Positions 18,384 through 31,866 of a stretch of DNA of 64,000 nt are shown here, in pieces. The stretch is from positions 679,497-743,496 of the forward strand of contig JAJOHG010000012.1 of the NCBI GenBank assembly GCA_021029095.1, in the 5' to 3' direction. This DNA comes from Phellopilus nigrolimitatus (Eukaryota > Basidiomycota > Agaricomycetes > Hymenochaetales > Hymenochaetaceae). The notes under the pieces were generated by a model. The model was not told the origin of the DNA, ran no database searches, and saw nothing but the letters and a program-made list of their open reading frames with translations. Each line of letters starts with the position of its first letter. Within the stretch, counting starts at the first letter, position 1. A program made the position numbers and the translations under genes.

Positions 18384-20039
18384 ATGGCTTCTGCTGAAGA
18401 AGTCTTTGTCAATCTGACCTTGGAAAGCGAGGTCATCTTCTCTCAGGCTGATGGACAGGTAAAGAAAAAAATGTTGTCGTTTCGGAGTGCTGGCACATCT
18501 GACACCCCGCAATTGTGCAGATTCTTCACCAGCAAGACAATGAAGATGATATCTGGGCTGTAGAGAACCTTAATGAAGCTGTCATGGAATGTATCAATGA
18601 CTTCCATGAGGTGGACAACTCTCCGGCAGGGAAGTTTGCTGAGCAGATGGCTTCTAATCACATAGCAGAAGGGACATTCAAGGGCTATAGAAGGTGAGCA
18701 TAGTCAAGCTTCTCTTTATTTATTTACCAATTAGAGTGCACTTTTCAAGGATTATATGTGATTATATTATGACAATGCGTACAATGAAGGGAATTAGGTG
18801 GAACCCGGTGATCACAACAAGGGACACACCAAAGGACATTGTCCTGATGATAGCTCATAAATGTGGACCCATTGAGAGCCGGTGTGAAGGAAAGAAGGTG
18901 TGTAAACTATTAGCTTTCTTTGGTGCTTTAATAATTTTATAAAAGTTTGCAACTGCGGTTTCAACTCGGGCAGCTCTATCATATTGGTACGGTGCTGTCC
19001 GCCCAGGAGAGAGCACCTCTACCTGGACTGTTGACAAGTATGACATCTGGTAAGGACATTAGCTCACTATCTATTTTATAATTGATATACCCACATTTTT
19101 TCACAAGTCATGGTCTTCCGACGCGTGCGGAGCTCGTCTCAAGATTCATGCGTGGATTACAGAAAAGAAAGGCAAAGCTTGGTGACAGCTCAACTTCTGC
19201 CCGTGCTGTCACATATGAAGATATGATCAACCTCTATTCCATTTGCATTGAAGATCAGAGCCTCACCGACGCTCAACGTCGTGCTGGAGTTGTTCGTTAT
19301 GTTTGTCTTTTCTTTTACATTTCTTGATGCATACAATAGACTAATGATATATACTACAGGCTGTCTACCTTTTTGCATGGCTTCTCCTTGAGCGGCTTGG
19401 GGAAACACTTGAGCTGGAGTTCAGAAACATCGATTTTCGAGGTATGTTCTCCAGTCTGTCAGAAATCTACAATTTTAAATTGTCTTTACAGGTGCATGGT
19501 TTGGTGTACAGATGCTTACACGGAAGAACGCACAGACCGGTGAGACGCATGAGATGCGACTCTATGCTAATGATCTTGATCCAAAGATTTGTCCAATGCG
19601 TGTCCTTCTGCGGATGGTTGGTCTATATGGCAAATTGGTCTCAGCAACAGGTCCACTCTTTCTGTCAGTCAGTGCATCTGGGAAAGTTGAGCCTCATAAA
19701 AGAATGGTCAGTCCTTTTCATTCAAATCAAAGGTCACTTTCTAATTTGTATATACAGACGGCTAGTTCAATCAGCCGCATGCTTCATAGTGACCTCCAGA
19801 AGCTTCACTACAAATCATGGTCTGCATTTGGTACCCATTCTTTCCGTCGTGGAGGGTGCCAATTCCGCATGAAGCATCGGAACTGGTCGCCAGACATGGT
19901 AGCTGCTTGGGGGGGTTGGTCACAACAGGAAGCAGTGACTATGTTTCGCTACTTTTTCTCACCCAATGACAATCATGAGCTGTTGAATGAGTATGATCTT
20001 GTTGGACTCCCAGTTGCTAAAAGGCAGCGCCTTTATTAG
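18384..20039 (+). CDS. Tyrosine recombinase of a Crypton-like element
   Basis: Eight exons join without a single lesion: 18384-18458, 18521-18693, 18735-18897, 18946-19049, 19108-19300, 19360-19441, 19492-19706 and 19758-20039, giving 428 residues. The catalytic pattern of tyrosine recombinases is present. A likely first Arg at about R248 lies in LERLGETLELEFRNID. A Lys lies in the hairpin MLTRKNAQTG. The H-x-x-R box GTHSFRRGG gives H362 and R365, a Trp at 389 sits in WGGWSQQEA, and the nucleophile Tyr is about Y400 in MFRYF. The N-terminal 200 residues are mostly helical and probably bind DNA. Such enzymes cut and rejoin DNA to excise and insert their element. It could instead belong to another fungal tyrosine-recombinase group; the active site makes the enzyme class itself secure. 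Confidence 0.85.
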
Positions 20040-21418: not shown

Positions 21419-21932
21419 AAGTACGAGGATAACAAGCCCGCAGATGATATCAGAGGTGTCGAAGATGAGAGACGAAACGAAGTAACGACCACGCCAAAAA
21501 CACGACTGTATATACTCAAAACCTTCTTTATAAATTATTAAATTAAATTATTATAACATATCATTCGGTCAGATGTAAGATGTAAAGAGCTCGTGTATGG
21601 AGATGGGAGGAGGACGAGTGCGGCCACCTTGGCCAGGTGGCTGCCCGGACACGAAGACGAAGTGCTTGACATGTGTCGGTACCCTCGCAAAAGCATTGAC
21701 ACAGTTCCCCGTGCGACCGCCCTTCCTCATCGCTAACCACCCAGCCGCCGCTGCCATGATCACCTTGTCGGTGTACCATAAGTAATAGTGTGCGGTGGTG
21801 CGGTGCTTAGTGCTTGTGTAGCCTGCCGGCTTGGTCGTTCAGCAGCTGCGCGTGCGACTTCATGTGCTGTGATGCATGGCATGTATGGTGGTCGACAGTC
21901 GGCTCCAGTAACGTAAATCGAGTCCAGCACGT
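21419..21932. other. Spacer between the recombinase element and the CDH1 relic
   Basis: AT-rich at 21500-21560 (aattaaattattataac), then GC-richer with short overlapping open frames on both strands. It should contain the right end of the Crypton-like element and the old 3' region of the CDH1 copy; neither boundary can be fixed by eye. Confidence 0.4.
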
Positions 21933-22373
21933 TCACCGAATTTGTCGTCCAAAATCGAGCTTGCTCTCCTTCTTCGACTCCCGGTTCTCCTTCGTCGAAA
22001 ACGCGTTCCAGAACCGCAGCGTCTCGTCCCCCCGCCCCCGTCACGATCGTCTCCCCATCCGGGCTCATCGCGAAGTACAGCACTCGGTGCGTGTGCCCCG
22101 TCAGCGATGCGACCATGTCCAACGACGGGTACTTCCAGATGCAGATCTGGTTCTGCGCCGTCGCCGACAAGAACCCATGGGTCGATACCAGCTCGTGCGA
22201 TGTTAGCGATCACATCAGGTTACACACCTGCTCTCCCACAAATTATCTCAGCACAGCGTTTTTTGCCTGGAAGAAGAAATTACGCACCTGACTTCCCGTG
22301 TCCAAGTCGTTCAGCATCGTCCCATTGAACATGTTCCAGAACCGGATCGTCTTGTCCTGCGTCCCCCCACCCA
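21933..22373 (-). pseudogene. CDH1/Fizzy-related WD40 protein, 3' segment (split copy)
   Basis: The last WD40 repeats of an APC/C activator are readable on the minus strand: GGGTQDKTIRFWN, an intron (about 60 nt), VCNLMWS with HELVSTHG, QNQICIWKYPSLD, LTGHTHRVLYFAMSPDGETIVTGAG, then DETLRFWNAFS. It ends in Ile-Arg, the C-terminal IR tail by which CDC20/CDH1 bind the APC/C. One extra G in a G-run near 22040 shifts the frame before DETLRFWN. At 22374 homology stops abruptly at the left end of a 6590-bp insertion and resumes with the preceding residues at 28964. CDH1 normally directs the ubiquitin ligase APC/C to mitotic substrates; this copy cannot make a full protein. Confidence 0.85.
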
Positions 22374-22385
22374 CATCAGGAAAAT
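22374..22385 (+). repeat. Left terminal inverted repeat of the 6.6-kb insertion
   Basis: CATCAGGAAAAT, the exact reverse complement of 28952-28963. It lies at the point where the CDH1 reading stops. Confidence 0.8.
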
Positions 22386-22499
22386 TACCAAAGCTATACA
22401 GACCTATATAGGACTATATAGAAAATATAGCTCCATAGTACTCCATAGATATCCCCCCCTTATATAGCGCTATATAGGAGCCCATAGTGCCATAGTCTG

Positions 22500-22640
22500 T
22501 AGGTGTCTGTAGCTCTGTAGGCCTGTAGCACTGTAGGCCTGTAGCACTGAAGTTCATAGTTACATAGCACTGTAGGCCTGTAGCACTGATGTTCATAGCA
22601 CTGTAGGCCTGTAGCACTGAAGTTCATAGCACTGTAGCTG
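22500..22640. repeat. Left subterminal tandem array
   Basis: About three to four imperfect copies of a roughly 30-bp unit built on TGTAGGCCTGTAGCACTGA and GTTCATAG. Short open frames across it are a by-product of the repeat. The core CTGTAGCACTG reappears as its reverse complement CAGTGCTACAG near 28930, on the other arm of the insertion. Confidence 0.75.
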
Positions 22641-22973
22641 CATAGTCTGTTTAGTCTGTTGGCCTGTAGTTTGTGCAGAATATATAGGGGCAGTGCTATT
22701 GTGAGAAATGTTCTATATTGCAGCTCTACATACGGACATTGGGAAGCCACTACATATGGGTAATTTAAATTAAATAAAAAAGGGGGGGAGGGGGGTGAGG
22801 GGGAGGGAGAAGCTTCATAAGAGAAAGCGGAGGAAATGGGATGGGAAGATACAGGATAGGCACTCACCTCATACTCAAGAGGCGGCGAGCCGTGAACCCC
22901 TGAGACCTAGATAGAAAATGTCGTAAACATTTCTGCTCCCCTTTTCTGCAGCTCTATACAGGCTCTCCATTAT

Positions 22974-24930
22974 CTACTTCGACTTCGCGAGCTCGCGCGC
23001 GGCCTTGATGAGCGGTGTGAGCGTGCGCAGCGGCTCGGATAGCTTGAAAAATGCATGCTGCAGACGTTTAGGGGGGAAAAGATAAGCAGTTAGTGCTCTG
23101 AGACGAAACGCAAACAAGTATCTAGACAACTAAAATCCGAAAACAAAAAGAAAAAAGGGGGGCCTCGGAATGAACAAAGAAATCGAAGTGACGCACCTGT
23201 AGTAACTGTGCGGCGTTGGGCCTCTTCTCCGCGTCCACCTCAAGCGTGCGCGCGAGGTAATCACGGAACGTCGGCGACAGCGACTCCGGATTTGCGATCG
23301 TCGGTGTCCCATTCGTTGCGATCAGGTACAGCGCCTTCAGCGGGTACTAGTTCAGATAGGGCGGCTCGCCTTCGACCTTTTCTAGTTTTGTAATTATTAA
23401 TCAAAGGGGGAATTCTAAGGTATTAGAAGTTAGCTAAATGGAAGGTCAAGTCGCAGGGACGCACCAATGACCTTGATGCCGAGACCCCAGATGTCGACCT
23501 TTGGGCCGTGCTCTTTCCGGGTGACGACCTAGCGCGCCATCCAGTACGGCGTGCCAACCATCGTCGTGCGCTTCGAGTGCGCGGGGTCCGAAATCTGCGC
23601 GCAAGAATCTGAAGTCGGCTGGAGGCAAGTTCAATCAGCTAGGCGCAGCGCACAAGCGCGACGGGTGGCACGCACTGAGTTTGATATCACCCGTGAGGCT
23701 GAGGAGCACGTTGTCACTCTTGTTGTCGCGATGAATGACACCGTGGCGGTGGAGGCACTCGAGACCCTGGCATGTCTCGCGGCTGACGGCCGCAATCTGC
23801 CCCTCGGTCATGAGGCTGGCGGTGACGACGTCGGTGAGCGAGCCGCCTTCCATGTATTCCATCATGACCCAGAGCTCGTTGCGGTGGAGGAACGAGTCGA
23901 TGTAGTGACGATGTTCGGGTGGCGCGAGGAGCCGCACCACGTCCTCCTCGTTCACCTTGTCCTTCTTCTTCTCGCGCCGCCGCAGCATCGCACTGTTGCC
24001 CTGGCTCGACGGCGCGACATTCGGGGGCGGGGGCGCATGCGCATGCGGTGGTGGCACGTGGGCGGACGCTGACCCGGAAGAGGGAGGCGGCGGGGGCGGC
24101 GCCGGCGTCGGGCTCGCGGGCGCCTGCTTCGCGGGTAGCCACGGCGGTGCCGAGGTGGGTGGAGCTGCGTATTGCGGGGCATGAGGTTGCGGCTGCGGCT
24201 GCGGTACGGGAGAGCGCCGCGCGCCGCTCGTGGTGTTGCTCCTGCCGACGCCTCCAGACAAGGAGGGCGACTTGGGCAGCCGCTGCGACATCGTGCGGTC
24301 GAGCGCGGGGATACTAGGTAGCGACGGTGGAGGAGCAGGTGCGGGGCGGTATGGGGACGGTGCCGAAATCGGTTTCTTTGGTGGCGGCGGCGCAGTTCTG
24401 CCGATCTCGTAGATCCTGGTGATCTTCATGACGGCCTGCGGGTTCTTTTGCTACACCGGGTCCTGCAGCAGCAGCTGCCACTTGCATGGCAGGGCCGTGA
24501 ATTCGCCCGAGCTCGCGTTGAACCGTCAGGTGCACGGGGTCGTACGGAGTGCTAATCTCGGGCTTCTTCGCGCTGCTCATGAAGTGCGTACCCTTCTTGC
24601 CCGAGCCCGAGATAGAGCCTGAGGCCGACCCCGAAGCGCTCGAAGGGCCCGACTTGGACGTGGAGCGCGAGCGCGGGGCGAACGTGTGCTCGGGGGAAAC
24701 GTCGATGTGGGTGGGAGCGGAGGCAGGCGGGGGCGACGAGTGGAGCGCGGGCTCGGCGGCGTAGTACAGGTCAGGGGCAGGCGGCGGTGCACTAGGCAGC
24801 GAAAGGCGGCGCTGTGCTGCATGCTCTGGGGGTTCCTATTGTGGTGTGAATAAGTCGTTGAGGTTGACGGTGCTCTGGCACGAGAGGGCGAGGTCGCGGC
24901 GGCCATGCTGCTGTCGCCGCGGAGGGTGCG
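22974..24930 (-). pseudogene. PAK/STE20-type protein kinase fragment (captured, decayed)
   Basis: In order on the minus strand are a Ser-rich N-terminal segment, the CRIB start EISTPYDPVHLT, a Pro-rich linker, and kinase pieces: YIDSFLHRNELWVMMEYMEGGSLTDVV, HGVIHRDNKSDNVLL, KRTTMVGTPYWMA and VEGEPPYLN. Closing blocks are [19 protein letters not shown] and the last exon LRTLTPLIKAARELAKSK ending at 22974. PAK kinases act downstream of Cdc42/Rac in polarity and MAP-kinase signalling. Here the CRIB frame is shifted, and the kinase N-lobe with the glycine loop and ATP-binding lysine is missing. The catalytic loop has HRDNKSDN instead of the usual HRDIKSDN, and stops stand at 24451-24453, 23529-23531 and 23347-23349. 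The upstream limit is uncertain. Confidence 0.85.
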
Positions 24931-24980
24931 GAGGGGAATGTGAGCAGCAGACGCGGGCACGCAAGAAAATGGCTTACCGT

Positions 24981-25330
24981 TCATGTGCACGCGGCGGGTA
25001 CGCGAGCGAGTCGAACACCGACACGTCGACAATGACGTCCGCGCCCGCGCGCCTTGCCCCTCCTGTTCGCGTGCCCATTCGCACCGGAACTCGCGCGCGT
25101 GCGTGGCGTGCCCTCCCCGCACGTTGAGCACACGTAGCGGAACGCGTCGAGCAGGATGCCGTACGCGGAGCAGTTTGTGCACGCGGGGGGCGCGAGCTGT
25201 CGGACCTCGGGCGGGGTGTCCACGGTGCGTAATCGACGAGGACGCGGATTGGCGATTCGACGACGAGGGGAGTGTGTGTTTCGCTCGATGGACTCGGGGG
25301 ATTCGGACAATTTCAGCCGCTCGAAAACTG
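24981..25330 (-). pseudogene. Cys4 zinc-knuckle fragment, unassigned
   Basis: A minus-strand frame contains ACTNCSAYGILLDAFRYVCSTC, two CxxC pairs separated by 15 residues, preceded by a Glu/Arg-rich stretch (TPPEVRQLAPP). It could be an upstream exon of the PAK relic or a separate captured piece; I cannot name the parent gene. Frames shift on both sides, so it is not an intact gene. Confidence 0.35.
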
Positions 25331-25639
25331 CAGAATATACCAAGAACGTACCGATCAGAACGAAAGAGACAGCGAAGGATCGTTGGTATTGCGGTCCTTG
25401 TCCTCATCCAGTCTTACGAGCGACGAGGTGGCGGAAAAGCTTGAGTCGTCGCGATATTCACGCGCAGCGTTATGCGCCTGCTTCCAAAGCTGCGTCCGGA
25501 CAGGAAGACAGATGGGAAGCAAGAGAAAAAGACGTGTGGCAAGAAAAAGTCAAGTTCAACGTGTCCTTTTTGGGCCGTAACCGTTACATTTGTGACATAT
25601 CACAATTTTACGAAATTTTGCTTAAGTCCTGATCTCTCA

Positions 25640-25800
25640 GTTATCGATGCTCACCGGAACGCAGGCGCTCCTGCTCGTCGTCTCTGAGACCGGGCTCGTG
25701 TATAACTTCACCACCGCCAAGCTGCAGCCGCTCGTCATGCAGCCCGAAGGCAAGAACCTCATCTAGGCCTGCCTCAACGTGCCGCACGGCCCGCTCCCAG
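25640..25800 (+). pseudogene. MADS-box (MCM1/SRF-type) fragment
   Basis: The second half of a MADS domain reads LTGTQALLLVVSETGLVY, then TTAKLQPLV and PEGKNLI, the dimerisation strand pair of MCM1/SRF-type factors. A TAG at 25764-25766 stands where these proteins have glutamine (LIQACLN), and the reading continues for about ten residues. The DNA-binding helix that should come first is not found in the roughly 150 bp upstream. The fragment is joined directly to the RTF1 fragment near 25800 with no spacer. Confidence 0.8.
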
Positions 25801-27462
25801 GACAAACGCAATCTCGATCAGATGCTACGCGCATAGCGCAAGGACAACGTGTCTAAGGCTGCAAAGTGTGACTACTGGATTCTGTGCACTAATTACTTCT
25901 CTTTGATAATGCTTCCTAGGCGCTCATCAAGTGAGGGGAGCAACGAAGGAGAAGACACGTAAGTTGGACGAACTGAAGGCGAAGAGGAAGGCGAAGAGTG
26001 AGAAGAAGCGGGTGCGTTGTTCATTGCTGGTCCGCATCCTTCTTCTAAACTGCCAACAGACGAGGATCAACTCGCCGAAGAGGGAGCGTTCTTCGTCACC
26101 GATGGACATGGAAATGTCTTCTGAAGACGAGGAAGACGGGCAGATCAGCAAACTCGAGCAGCAAGAGGAGCGCGAATCGTGCCTCCTAAACAAGGCAAAG
26201 CCCGAGGACGAAGATCTCACTCTGGAAGACCTCGAGAAGTGCCGACTTTCACGCAACAAGCTTGTTAAGTACGCATTGATGCCGTGGTTCGAGGATTTCG
26301 TCAAAGGTAACTTGCCCGACATTCTGTCGTCCCTCGAACCTTTTGACGGTTGGTGCACTGCAAAGGTTCATGGGTGCGCTACCTTATTGGTGCGGACCAA
26401 GGCCAGCCCGTGTATCGAATTTGCGAGATCGCAAGTATGTGTTGCGTCCTCGCCTGTGTCTTGTTTCTAGTGTTCTGAGCGCGCGCCTCCCAAAGACCTC
26501 GGCGCAAACCCAGCTAAGCCCTATAAGATTGAAAACGAGTACTTCGACACCAGCCTCGAGCTGCGGCACGGCGCGGCTATCAAAGTGTTCCCGATGGACA
26601 AGGTTTTCAATGCGGCGTTCACAGAGGTAGGATCATCGACCTTTTGTTCCGATGCCTGGTTGCTGGACAAACAGTCCGGTACAGGACGAGTGGTGCCGGT
26701 TCAAAGCAACATGTGAACATGAGAAAGTCAAGCTCCCTGCGAAGCGCACGATCAAGAAGAAGCTGCAACAGTTCGCCAAGCTGACGAGCCATTCATTAAC
26801 GGAGGTACGTGCTTGCCCCTCTCCCCCAGAGAGCTGCTGCTGGAAACGCGCGCACAGGCGGACGTCGCCGCGATCCTCGCGCGCAAGGCGGAGCTGAACC
26901 GCAGCCTGCCGAAGTCGCGCACGACCGCGACGAAGGCTGCACTTGAGCGCGCGGAGCTCGTGCGCATGCGCGCGCTCGCCCAGATGCGCCGCGACTTCGC
27001 GGAGAGCGCGGCGCTCGAGGTGCAGCTCGCCGCGCTCGACGCGCGGCAGGGCGTGGGCGCGCCCGCGCGCTCCGAGAAGGAGGACATCCTCGCGAAGGTG
27101 AACGAGCGCAACCGGCAGGTGAACCGCGACGCCGTGCGCCGTGCGGAAGTCGCCGAGGCGGAGCGCAGGAAGAAGGCGCGCCTGGCGCGCGCGGCCGCTG
27201 CTGCGAACGGCTCGCGGGCGGGCACGCCGGGCGTTTTCAAGTGCGTCCTGTTTCTGCTTTTTTTTTTGCTGCTGCGCGCGTTCGCCGACTGACTTTGCGC
27301 ATCGCGTGATCTCCGCAGGGACTCGCCGAACGGGACGACAATGCTCGGCGCGTCGCTTGCGCTCGGGGACGGCGCCCGCTCCGTGTCGCCCGCGCCCTCG
27401 GGAAGCGTGCGTTCAAGAGCATCGTCGCGAGCTCCGTCGAAGTGGACCTGGTCGACTTTTAG
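25801..27462 (+). pseudogene. RTF1 (Paf1 complex subunit), 5'-truncated copy
   Basis: From KRNLDQMLRA onward the transcription-elongation factor RTF1 can be followed to its acidic C-terminus. The blocks are TKEKTRKLDELKAKRKAKSE, an acidic linker and a complete Plus3 domain. The Plus3 domain runs KLVKYALMPWFEDFVKGSW, RYLIGADQGQPVYRICEIAN, PYKIENEYFDTSLELRHG and DEWCRFKATCEHEKVKL over four introns. The coiled region ILARKAELNRSLPKSRTTATK and the end VEVDLVDF with stop at 27460-27462 follow. Lesions: the first third is absent, a TAG at 25834-25836 replaces a probable glutamine, a frameshift lies near 25930 and another near 27405. Inside the native complex RTF1 promotes histone H2B ubiquitylation; the long open Plus3 region here is only a remnant. 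Confidence 0.85.
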
Positions 27463-28639
27463 GCGCTGCTTTCGGCGGGCGGACGCGGGCGGGGCTCCTT
27501 TTTTGCTGTGGACCTGGGGGCGTACATGTGTAGATTATGAAGCATATTAACCATACATACTGTACATACATACAATATACAATTAAATGTACCTTGGCCA
27601 TTCTAAGCTTGAAAACCTGTGTGAATTACCCACAGGTTTTAGAAAAACTCTCAACCCGGACCCACGAAAACCCGTTTCCCACGGGTCACCGTGCACGGGT
27701 GATCCATGAATACGGATCTGTCCAAGTCGGGCCACGGGATACCCACTGGTTCCAGGGAGTCATGCTAGACTCTACAGTGTGGCTAGCCATAAAATTCGCA
27801 AAAGTGTGACATGTCACATTTGTGACATGTATCGATCTTCACATTAAGATTGATACAAAACATCTGTCTCCACACCTGTGCCTGCAGCCCGCAGCTATTC
27901 TTTCCCAGTGATTGCCCATTTTGCCTCTGTGTGTAATATTGATAATGGATAACTTGCCTGCATCCATCCTAGAGCATAGCACGGGTTGATCTGTGGTTTT
28001 AGCATTTTGCTAAAAGTACTGCATGTTCTGCTCCAAATTTTGTGATTGTATATGCGAAATGTGTGTGCTGTTAAGGTCCACAGTATGCAAAAACACATAT
28101 TTGCATTGGTGCAGTACCTGTAGCAGGAGAGGCAAACAAGTTATCAAAACCTGCGGGTATTGTCCACATTCTTGCACATGAAGAACACTATGAAAGAGCT
28201 TCAGACACTGGAGAAACACTTAACAAATGCCACATACAGATTCCCCCTCAATTGTATCAATAGCTTGCTGCCAGGGTCTGGGCCAGCAGTGTTTTCCCAG
28301 TGACTATGGGCTATGAACATGTATTGCTGACTTTTTCAAGGTTCAACTGTGCATTCATTGTCACCAAGCCATCTGGTAAAGACCACCACCTCCTGCCATG
28401 AAGCTCTGTCTCTCTTGTTTCACCCTTCTCTCCCTCATCCTTGAGTTGGAGGCTGTAGACTTTTTTTTCCCTCCAGGGATAATGAAATTGTGTTTAAAAG
28501 AGGTCTTTGCAGCCCAGAGAGATATTTGCTACAAATCATTTATATGCTTCTGGATCTCTAAGCTATTTTCTATGAGCCTTCCATATGCTTCCCAGTCAAC
28601 AAGCTATTTCCTATGGCCCTTCCATATGCTTCCCAAGCT
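27463..28639. other. Non-coding right arm of the 6.6-kb insertion
   Basis: AT-rich sequence with no gene. It holds a short inverted repeat (acctgtg...cacaggt near 27618-27640) and direct repeats of ccatatgcttccca near 28580 and 28620. Short frames on both strands have no motif. Confidence 0.5.
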
Positions 28640-28940
28640 GGCAAGCTATATACTACACAGCTACAGAGAGCTACAGACTCCTACAGTGCTGCCAAGCTAT
28701 ACAACTATACAGCTACAGGTGCTACCAAACTATATACTACACGGCTACAGGGAGCTACAGACTGCTACAAGTGCTATGAAGCTATATACTACACAGCTAC
28801 AGGGAGCTACAGACTCTTACAAGTGCTATGAAGCTATATACTGCACAGCTACAAGGAGCTACAGACTCCTACAGTGCTATATGTGCCTATGCACAATGTG
28901 CAATTGACACTACAGACACTACACAGTGCTACAGTGCAAT
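28640..28940. repeat. Right subterminal tandem array
   Basis: About four to five imperfect copies of a roughly 50-bp unit containing GCTATATACTACACAGCTAC, GGGAGCTACAGACT and CTACAAGTGCTATGAA. Its core CAGTGCTACAG is the reverse complement of the CTGTAGCACTG core in the left array. The long open frames across it (up to 169 codons) are translations of the repeat, not genes. Confidence 0.75.
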
Positions 28941-28951
28941 GCAGGAAATAC

Positions 28952-28963
28952 ATTTTCCTGATG
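28952..28963 (-). repeat. Right terminal inverted repeat of the 6.6-kb insertion
   Basis: ATTTTCCTGATG, the exact reverse complement of 22374-22385. It is followed at once by CATCGCCAG, where the CDH1 reading resumes. Confidence 0.8.
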
Positions 28964-30005
28964 CATCGCCAGAATCCCAGACATATGCGGGTCCCATGCC
29001 AGTGCTTTCACAGCAGCAGTGTGTGCTCGTGGAACCTCCACAGTGGCTGGTCGCCCGGCACGTCGTCCATCGCGTTCGTGCTCCCGTTTGCAGTTGCGAC
29101 TACGCTCCCGCTCGCGCCGGTACTCATGCCAGGGTCAGCGACACTCGCGCCTGTGACAGAGGCAATGGTCGCCCTCCCTCCACTTAACGAACTCCCGCTC
29201 CCGCTCGCGAGCATTGCGTTCTGCGGACCGCTGCCGCTCCACTTGAGCCCACACCTCCTGCCGGTGCCCCACGCACTGCCTAAACGGCATCGTGCCCGAC
29301 TCCCGCACGTCCCATTGGTGCACCATCCGGTCCCGCGAGCCCGATGACAAGATGTGCGCGTTCCACGCAAGCACCCCGATGCGCTGCGCGTGCGCCTGCA
29401 GATATGTCCGCAAGACTTGTAGTGTGTGGGCGTCGTAGATGTGTAGACGCCTAGATAGTGTCCCAATAGCTAGTGTGGTGCTCTGCATGCTGCGATTCAG
29501 AATGTATCGACGGAAAAGAAAGAGGGGAGACGCAAACTCACCTACTGGTTCTGCAAATCACAGTTTTGACACGGCTGCTGTGTGCGCAGTCCATAGATAG
29601 ACACACGAACCCAACCCGACACCGAGTACGTTTGTACTCGACCAATCCACCAGGTTCGAGTAAAAGTCATCTGCGAGGTCCGGTGCGTCCAGGACGCGAT
29701 ATGGTGTTTTGCAAACGCTCCGCAATTGCCGCCATGGTCTCTCCAGAAGGTGCTGGCTCTCTGCGCACAGGGCTAAGAGAATAGACCTCGTCGGCAGGTG
29801 TGTCCAATCGGCGTGTCGGAGTGGCGGGATTGAAGTTGCTGGGCGAGTTGAAGTTGAAAAAGACCCTTCCTAGAGGGTGTGGATGGGAGGGCTGATGTCG
29901 AAGCGTCGTTGTTATCTCGTCTGGGGTGCGAGAGGTCCGCGCGGTGCCGGGCATACGAGCGGCCTGATGCCAGCCGGCACCGGCGATCACCGGAGGAAGC
30001 GGTTA
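28964..30005 (-). pseudogene. CDH1/Fizzy-related WD40 protein, 5' segment (split copy)
   Basis: The upstream part of the CDH1 copy interrupted at 22374-28963. Readable on the minus strand are NPATPTRRLDTPADEVYSLSP, then CKTPYRVLDAPDLADDFY, NLVDWSSTNVLGVGLGSCVYLW, HIYDAHTLQVLRTYLQAHAQ, SSGSRDRMVHQWDVRE, LKWSG and HEHTAAVKALAWDPHMSG. Frameshifts lie near 29735, near 29575 (with a TAG soon after), near 29243 (single-base loss before LKWSG) and near 29020 (a 2-base CA slip). The very N-terminus with the C-box was not recognised. The copy stops about 30 bp from a palindromic repeat at 30032. Confidence 0.85.
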
Positions 30006-30077: not shown

Positions 30078-31866
30078 TGAAAGAAAAGCTGTTTTGAACG
30101 TTGGTTTACCGCTCGCTCGTGATGGAATTGATTGTTGGATTTGTCTCACAGGCTGCTTTACATATGGCTTCATGGCATACATAATGGCTGTTTCTGACTT
30201 TCCATAACCACTGGATCCTTTTCTGTTTCTATTCTGAAGATGAATGATGGTACATACATGATATTTATTCACCTATGCTCTCGATAAAGGACGAAACTCG
30301 GCATTTCTTGGTCCCTTTTGTATCGTATAGCCAATTCTAATAATAAGTATGAAACCTAATATATACTAACACAAATGGCAAGAAGAAGAAGAAAAAAGGA
30401 ATCGTAGCTTGCCATGCGGAGTAATGGCCCACTACCAAAGTTGGTATCTGAATCGTACTGTACTATATTATTACTGGCATCCGGGTACGATCTATATTTT
30501 CCTTGTACATGTACACGGCCGCGCTAATTAGCAAGAAACATTCTGTGAGTGGTAAGTGCTTCAAGCTCTGTGCTTCTCCATAGTGTTCATCACTAACGAA
30601 AAGATGTAGGACTCGGGCGCGCATCCAGCTGCTACGGGCGCTGGGGAAATAACTTGACCGGTGCGGATAGTATTCAGCGATTGGAGACTTGCTGAAAGGC
30701 GCACGAATATTGGCAGGGACTTGGTTATTTGTTAACCTTCAATTCGAAATATCTCTAGTCGACCAGACTCCTTTCAATCACCTTCTAAACGAAGCTTACA
30801 TATTTCAGCCCATTTCAATATCGCTAAAATAGTGAAGCCTGCAGACCTGCATGTTGATCGGCACCACTAAGCGCGTAAATCCTTGGCAGGATTTGCAGAT
30901 CGTCCTTCTCATTTTCCGCAATGAAATTCACCAATCATCTGTGCGCCGTGCGGGTAATCGTAGTGCGGCCAACTCAAGCAATTGAAAGTGAGCACAGCGG
31001 ATAGATGCGAATGTGGATTATACTTGGACATGCATAGATGAAAATGATGCGACGTGACTATAGACATGAGACGGACAGTAATGGACATAAAAATGAGGCT
31101 CGTGTAATAAACAGAGTAAACGGCGTGTGGGAGTTGGGGAACGACACTCCCGTGTCGATTTACAGACTAAAAGAAGATTATAGGAGAGCAAAGCACAGTG
31201 TACTGCGTATGTGGTACTAGTGAGAGATTGAAGTAGCCAAAGGGAGTATATGGTGATACAGATAGAAAGAAGAAAGCAAAAAAGGGTAACTTTATCCCTC
31301 AAAATTCCTTCAAAATCGCAGTTTCCAAAAATGTATAAGTCACAGACTGTACTCTCGCAGCCAGCAAGATGAGGTCGCCGTTATTAATTCCATCGAGGAT
31401 TTGACACGCGAAAGTCGACGTCGAAACGGGCGAGGAAGGTCCGGGCCGTCCGGCCCCTCCGACGCCTTGTTTAGGCGCCAGAGCAGAAGAGCCGCCTGGG
31501 CATCGGTATGGGAGACTCCTCCGCCATCGGCAGGTGACTAAGCATCTGCACACGTCGGCGAACGAGAGGAAGGCGCAATGGTGGTCGAACCATATACGCG
31601 CTGCGGTGTGGAGCTAGAAAATGAAAGGAAGAGGGATGGAGGTGAAGAAGGGCTTCGGAAGAGTTCTGGTTCACAGGGTATAGGCGCGGTTGCACCGCAG
31701 ACACATGCCGACTACCTGTATAAAATACGACAAAATGATGAGAGCGAGCGAAACGACCGACAGCCGAATGTGTCGGATATTAATTATCGGGGCGATAGAT
31801 CTTAGTCTAGTCGACGAATGGCATGGTCCACAGGCCTCCGTTCGTTGCATTCGTGTCCTGCCCCCT
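30078..31866. other. Intergenic region, nothing recognised
   Basis: About 1.8 kb, AT-rich in its first half, with only short open frames and no motif. It separates the decayed block from the intact right arm. The last 60 bases or so are probably the 3' untranslated region of the minus-strand gene ending at 31867. Confidence 0.5.

Follow-up and report, generated by a model that had tools for sequence, protein, structure and literature searches.

A recently moved, very probable PlavakaB transposon with pieces of four genes in a CDH1 copy of Phellopilus nigrolimitatus

Introduction

In plants, Pack-TYPE elements such as Pack-MULE and Pack-CACTA have been described as non-autonomous transposons that take up host coding DNA and shuffle it (PMC8903248). 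Here, we analysed a 64,000-nucleotide stretch of the genome of the wood-decay basidiomycete Phellopilus nigrolimitatus (the window; C24:679497-743496 of a 56.4-Mb assembly in 635 contigs), in which a 6.6-kb segment bounded by terminal inverted repeats (TIRs) splits a copy of CDH1 and carries broken pieces of at least four other, unrelated genes. The segment is very likely a recently moved, non-autonomous DNA transposon of the Pack kind belonging to PlavakaB, a CACTA-related group, so that both the host, a fungus, and the transposase superfamily, Plavaka, differ from those of the plant elements.

One of the closest described systems is PlavakaB itself (Pfam PF18759), for which a 2025 survey gives CATCA..TGATG termini and target site duplications (TSDs) of 2-3 bp, and reports the capture of TET/JBP genes (PMC12730594). 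The window element resembles this group in its CATCA..TGATG ends, its 2-bp TSD, its occurrence in a mushroom-forming fungus and the Plavaka transposase found in linked relatives, but it lacks a transposase of its own, carries several broken host gene fragments instead of one gene, and is placed by its ends and neighbours, not by a tree. In fungal hAT and Tc1/mariner transduplication (PMC3538342, PMC6710886), TIR elements likewise carry and multiply host coding sequence; each of the cases considered here, from Ascomycota and one of them captured from a transcript, involves a single host coding region (histone H3-like or a coiled-coil domain), whereas the window element is a four-gene chimera. 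The gene-capturing Helitrons of Pleurotus (PMC4289320) are also basidiomycete mobile elements with captured host genes, but the window element has both a TIR and a TSD. Among animal Pack-TIRs, 323 of 370 are hAT or Tc/mariner elements (PMC8277862); the element described here is fungal, and a mechanism can only be proposed for it. No Plavaka element with several host gene fragments was found in a literature search that covered titles and the beginnings of abstracts and left most subscription journals outside its reach. A preceding sequence-only reading of the window had considered TIR-bounded gene capture with this cargo unusual for a fungus, which the published hAT and Tc1/mariner cases make less so.

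Results

An insertion with perfect inverted ends in a damaged CDH1 copy

The element comprises 6590 bases (C24:701870-708459; Table 1) and is delimited by exact inverted copies of CATCAGGAAAAT, with CA directly outside both ends, just as the sequence-only reading had described. The only other similar match found when the window was searched lies at 18838 and contains 1 mismatch. Inside the ends, the hexamer CTGTAG on the left and its reverse complement CTACAG on the right form dense subterminal arrays (Table 1), with only 2 and 1 copies, respectively, in the middle part. When the two flanks were joined and one CA was removed, 1198 of 1202 positions were identical to a stretch of C101 (L055), which is free of the insert and has a single CA where the window carries the element; the first 1127 bases of the right flank match C101 at 99%. 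C101 may represent the second haplotype or a recent duplicate. Related strains had been proposed as the place to look for an empty CDH1 site, and the uninterrupted site recovered here comes instead from the same genome. The match to C101 ends at about the point where another dispersed repeat begins (window positions 30085-30163, with 94-100% identical copies at C401, C68, C2 and C90).

The earlier claim that one WD40 reading resumes exactly once the segment and one CA are removed holds at the level of the joined flanks, but the reading itself was no longer intact when the element arrived. In C268, to which the C101 stretch is 91-93% identical, the reading closes with ...FGRQIR and a stop. A 1-base shift close to this end, common to C101 and the window, removes the tail from both; CDH1 proteins end in IR. 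Because the frameshift is common to the window and the uninterrupted C101, the CDH1 copy was damaged before the insertion. Judged from these comparisons, the gene struck by the element was a duplicated, already frameshifted and probably nonfunctional copy.

Two transposase families, Plavaka and KDZ, were searched for genome-wide, and 0 of 18 and 0 of 73 matches, respectively, fall within the element, in agreement with the earlier statement that it encodes no transposase. The segment 22374-28963 is a real non-autonomous DNA transposon.

A family of insertions sharing the same ends

Genome-wide, CATCAGGAAAAT occurs 42 times (18 forward and 24 reverse), compared with 1 occurrence of the same pattern written backward and ~6.7 expected at equal base frequencies. 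Seven convergent pairs of exact 12-bp ends lie within 10 kb of each other, and all seven have matching 2-bp flanks (CA in the window, GA in C249, AA in C25, CT in C68, TG in C457, AT in C2 and TT in C146), with none matching at 3 bp; the probability of seven out of seven matching dinucleotides by chance is ~4 × 10−9. The search for further copies suggested by the sequence-only reading has therefore yielded 2-bp duplications at every exact pair within 10 kb, and the family comprises seven or more separate insertions that have the same 12-bp ends and a common backbone. The copy in C249 is full-length, differs from the window element at 3 of 6590 positions (99.95% identity) and occupies a different site with its own GA duplication; the window element has recently moved or been copied. 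The C25 and C68 elements are 98.9% alike, and C434 contains the same insertion as C146, with 499 of 500 bases of the left flank identical. Uninterrupted related sites were recovered for four of the six other insertions, namely those of C249 (99%), C25 (94%) and C68 (up to 99%, at many places), for which 40 of 241 candidates were scored, and that of C2 (91%), with 40 of 137 scored.

Two shorter elements of 2.0 kb (L043:501-2498 and L044:4483-6466) have one imperfect end each and 2-bp flanks of GA and TT. They are 99% alike, have nearly the same ends and make up a second non-autonomous family.

Captured gene pieces and their parent-like copies

The cargo consists of four pieces (Table 1). The sequence-only reading had recognised fragments of at least three unrelated regulatory genes with introns and in both orientations; the PAK piece on the minus strand and the MADS-box and RTF1 pieces on the plus strand bear this out, but introns were demonstrated for PAK only, and a fourth piece, a ZZ-type zinc-finger fragment on the minus strand, had been missed. 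As that reading had anticipated, parent-like genes exist elsewhere in the genome for PAK, MADS and RTF1.

For PAK, a fuller copy at C457:168400-173500 encodes PBD and kinase domains, and its kinase frame best matches PAK1 structures. Relative to this copy, the window piece contains a 1-base frame change and a premature stop within 23337-23376, where the C457 copy reads YLNQNPL. The fuller copy lies ~2 kb or less from the PAK-bearing element of C457 (the C457:168400-180745 stretch); this proximity could be fortuitous or could reflect a capture that took place locally. PAK is also the piece in which the route of capture was read from introns: the intron sequence aligns with the genomic C457 copy inside a 93.5% alignment, which contradicts retroposition of spliced mRNA for this piece, and as no point in support of retroposition was seen, the captured pieces almost certainly derive from DNA.

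The zinc-finger sequence is present at no fewer than 27 other places at ~76-82% identity, including C603:685703-686887 (L058), with 40 of 94 candidates scored. Fungal proteins for which ZZ or PB1 domains are precomputed are relatives of the C603 copy; the window piece itself matched no Pfam family.

The RTF1 assignment draws on a weak Plus-3 match (21.2 bits against a cut-off of 27), on the RTF1 name carried by one of nine homologues, and on 91.7% identity to the C101 copy, which has an RTF1-like start, across the 265 bp aligned; a sequence search of the PDB with one RTF1 piece gave no match. The RTF1 and MADS pieces of the window each contain an in-frame stop that is missing from the copy with which they were compared. 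RTF1 is normally a single-copy gene. Here, 11 other long matches to the RTF1-like sequence, of 1.3-1.7 kb and 82-93% identity, were found at loci beyond the two elements (C141, C101, C9, C244, C446, C611, C290, C301, two places in C124, and C625). A ~200-bp repeat lies upstream of two of the RTF1 copies and is also present at Plavaka loci (L054:588-797, L052:4558-4759, L030:654-841 and L047:1721-1905).

At C625:200800-206000 (L052), PAK and RTF1 copies lie <1 kb apart, with the sole exact 12-bp end of C625 ~60 kb off. This pair was considered as a side-by-side parental source and dropped, as the two copies are not oriented to each other as in the element and a MADS match was missing from the locus. 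The same adjacency, and the many dispersed duplicates of RTF1, PAK and the zinc-finger sequence outside the element family, would be compatible with a segmental duplication or an assembly error that joined the gene pieces, with the inverted ends arising by chance. Such an artefact is highly improbable: it is contradicted by the uninterrupted single-CA site and by the nearly identical C249 copy with its own duplication, the backbone and ends are common to seven insertions, and the C625 genes are oriented differently.

The copies in C457 (PAK), C35 (MADS), C101 (RTF1) and C603 (zinc finger) are termed parent-like on the strength of their similarity. Sister elements carry further cargo: C146 contains a SEC31-like piece, and L038, which bears a right end of the type that we label W, contains a piece of ribosomal L5e, around which the L038 stretch is 90-91% identical to the C25 and C457 elements. 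Since PAK, MADS and RTF1 are each broken in the window copy, the cargo looks like decayed passenger sequence and not like working protein. Retention for function, with the PAK, MADS or RTF1 pieces giving rise to chimeric transcripts or small RNAs that act on the parent genes, would accord with the derivation of the pieces from regulatory genes and their recurrence across family members, with the open frames for kinase, PBD and MADS domains retained in sister elements, and with public predicted proteins that match the SEC31-like piece of C146. It is nevertheless very unlikely for the window element, in which PAK has both a premature stop and a frame change, RTF1 and MADS have in-frame stops, and MADS is cut within exon 2. 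Many reading frames of the sister elements match no Pfam family.

Table 1. Features of the element and of the CDH1 copy around it (window positions)
Feature	Position	Strand	Evidence
C-terminal WD40 part of CDH1 copy (downstream side)	21763-22373	-	CDC20/Fizzy WD40 in 21763-22209; frameshift common with C101
Left target site duplication, CA	22372-22373		Flank letters; single CA at uninterrupted site
Left terminal inverted repeat, CATCAGGAAAAT	22374-22385	+	Exact match
Left backbone, subterminal repeats, 12 CTGTAG in first 590 bp of element	22374-22862		
Part of PAK (p21-activated, STE20-type) kinase gene with introns	22863-24919	-	Pkinase in 23638-24450; 93% to C457:168400-173500 copy
Fragment related to ZZ/PB1-type zinc-finger gene	24918-25505	-	Sequence match to other genomic copies
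Part of MADS-box (SRF/MCM1-type) exon 2, truncated by RTF1 piece	25644-25798	+	C35 copy 92% identical across 155 bp; sister element L036 has SRF-TF
3' part of RTF1 gene (begins inside exon) and downstream repeat DNA	25797-27774	+	Weak Plus-3; RTF1-named homologue; C101 copy
Right backbone, subterminal repeats, 12 CTACAG in last 590 bp of element	27777-28963		
Right terminal inverted repeat	28952-28963	-	Exact match
Right target site duplication, CA	28964-28965		Flank letters; uninterrupted site
Upstream side of same CDH1 copy	28964-29557	-	CDC20/Fizzy WD40 in 29138-29557

Order of capture

Junctions between the pieces were compared among a set of sequences that included the window copy, C249, C25, C68, C457, C2, C146/C434, L038 and L045. 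The join between the left end and PAK is common to the window copy, C249, C25, C68, C457 and the diverged L045, and that between PAK and the zinc-finger fragment to the window copy, C249, C25, C68, C457 and C2, with a gap at this position in C146/C434. The MADS/RTF1 join, at which ~2 bases are common to both source sequences, was confined, in this set, to the window copy and C249; in C25, C68, C457, L038 and L045 the match stops at the very base of this join, and the MADS sequence continues beyond it in C25, C68 and C457. RTF1 is therefore the latest piece, and the capture was stepwise.

Probable placement among Plavaka transposons

The termini of the element fit the CATCA..TGATG form, with a 2-bp TSD in all seven pairs. 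A Plavaka transposase profile produced 18 matches at 10 loci in the genome, and at four of these loci (C83, C113, C390 and C555) an exact 12-bp end lies 4.9-7.4 kb from the transposase gene, with the gene inside the end; by comparison, sequence no more than 8 kb away from such an end makes up ~1.2% of the genome. Open frames with the Plavaka domain (PF18759) reach 602 residues in C113 and 601 residues in C346. At the C113 end, the only such end checked, CTACAG occurs 51 times in 800 bp and once in the next 7 kb, in the same orientation as in the window element. A transposase acting on both kinds of element would require just such a combination of a common end sequence and a hexamer array of like orientation.

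Helitrons lack both a TIR and a TSD and insert at AT, and this group was rejected in view of the 12-bp TIR and of 2-bp TSDs with seven different dinucleotides. MULE and Pack-MULE elements have a TSD of ~9 bp and a long TIR, which misfits the 2-bp TSD found here, with flanks that already differ at 3 bp in all seven pairs. KDZ (Zisupton) elements have an 8-bp TSD, as do hAT elements, and fungal EnSpm families have CAC..GTG ends and a 3-bp TSD (PMC12730594), in contrast to the CAT..ATG ends and 2-bp TSD of the present element, so that neither KDZ nor hAT nor EnSpm/CACTA proper agrees with it. The sequence-only reading had left the family unnamed; the element is not a MULE, a CACTA element proper or a Helitron, and fits PlavakaB. 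One could still envisage a Pack-type element of another TIR superfamily (MULE, hAT or CACTA/EnSpm proper) that is Plavaka-like only at its ends, as the window element encodes no Plavaka or KDZ transposase, its family membership comes from the ends and linked relatives, and the CMCT group, which includes CACTA, mostly has CA..TG ends and TSDs of 2-5 bp (PMC12730594). We give this alternative a very small chance, in view of the CATCA..TGATG ends with 2-bp TSDs throughout, the Plavaka genes inside the same end at four loci and the same hexamer array at the C113 end.

Several observations weigh against a recently moved PlavakaB element of the Pack kind. The four close Plavaka loci score equally against the profile, and the members that were aligned with each other are near-identical; they look like copies of one family and are thus not independent, and the other six of the 10 loci have no exact end within 8 kb. 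A search of 12.4 kb for the other end of the transposase-bearing C113 element, in inverted, CATCA-like form and with up to 2 mismatches, was negative, and none of the 29 matches at the four loci with a nearby end corresponds to the W-type left end. In C346, W-type ends lie on either side of a Plavaka gene over a span of 31.8 kb, with CA and CT outside; as these outer dinucleotides differ, C346 was dropped as a complete autonomous element with W-type ends, and the outer dinucleotides of the other wide pair, in C18 (60 kb), do not match either. No transposase-bearing element delimited at both ends was found among the linked Plavaka loci, and the full-length relative with a transposase that the sequence-only reading had called for did not emerge. 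Its broader proposal, namely that the segment is a non-autonomous element with TIRs that captures genes and is mobilised by a transposase from another place in the genome, is supported; given the missing second C113 end and the lack of a W-type left end at the close loci, we can only infer the autonomous partner. The choice between PlavakaA and PlavakaB was judged by the ends, and not by a tree, and is accordingly provisional. For two insertions no uninterrupted site was present among the candidates scored: for C457, the alignment with one place, C179, covers the left flank but extends just 8 bases past the junction, and in the case of C146 the duplication marks the start of a high-copy repeat. 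Finally, the ~2-bp microhomology at the MADS/RTF1 join could be chance.

Discussion

Pack-TYPE elements have a TIR and a TSD, and introns occur in their captured pieces. At this locus, a TIR and a TSD enclose gene fragments, parent-like genes exist elsewhere in the genome, and a second copy of the element occupies another site. The element inserted with a 2-bp duplication, was recently copied and belongs to a family in which the cargo changed stepwise. In the mechanism that we propose, a Plavaka transposase supplied in trans by related elements would recognise the 12-bp ends together with the CTGTAG subterminal array, and would cut and paste the non-autonomous element. New pieces would enter by template switching during the repair of an internal break or gap, with host genes copied via very short microhomology. 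For animal Pack-TIRs, gap-filling and fork-stalling template-switch models have been put forward, with a median microhomology of 2 bp (PMC8277862).

Plavaka and KDZ transposons make up about half of the DNA elements in one well-assembled mushroom genome, and were considered understudied by the authors of that work (PMC8290104). The element described here suggests that Plavaka transposons can shuffle gene pieces around the genome as Pack elements do in plants. Multi-fragment capture by one Plavaka lineage would constitute a TIR-based route of exon shuffling for fungi, comparable to plant Pack-MULEs. A far wider role is conceivable, although we consider it unlikely: the PlavakaB lineage could be a standing gene shuffler that keeps taking up, exchanging and multiplying PAK, MADS, RTF1, SEC31, ribosomal L5 and ZZ-type pieces, and that has also produced part of the dispersed duplicates of RTF1, PAK and the zinc-finger gene, with a fraction of these being expressed in the form of chimeric transcripts or regulatory RNA. 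With near-identical copies, uninterrupted sites and sister elements free of RTF1, the order of capture is readable, which makes the mechanism of capture testable within one genome.

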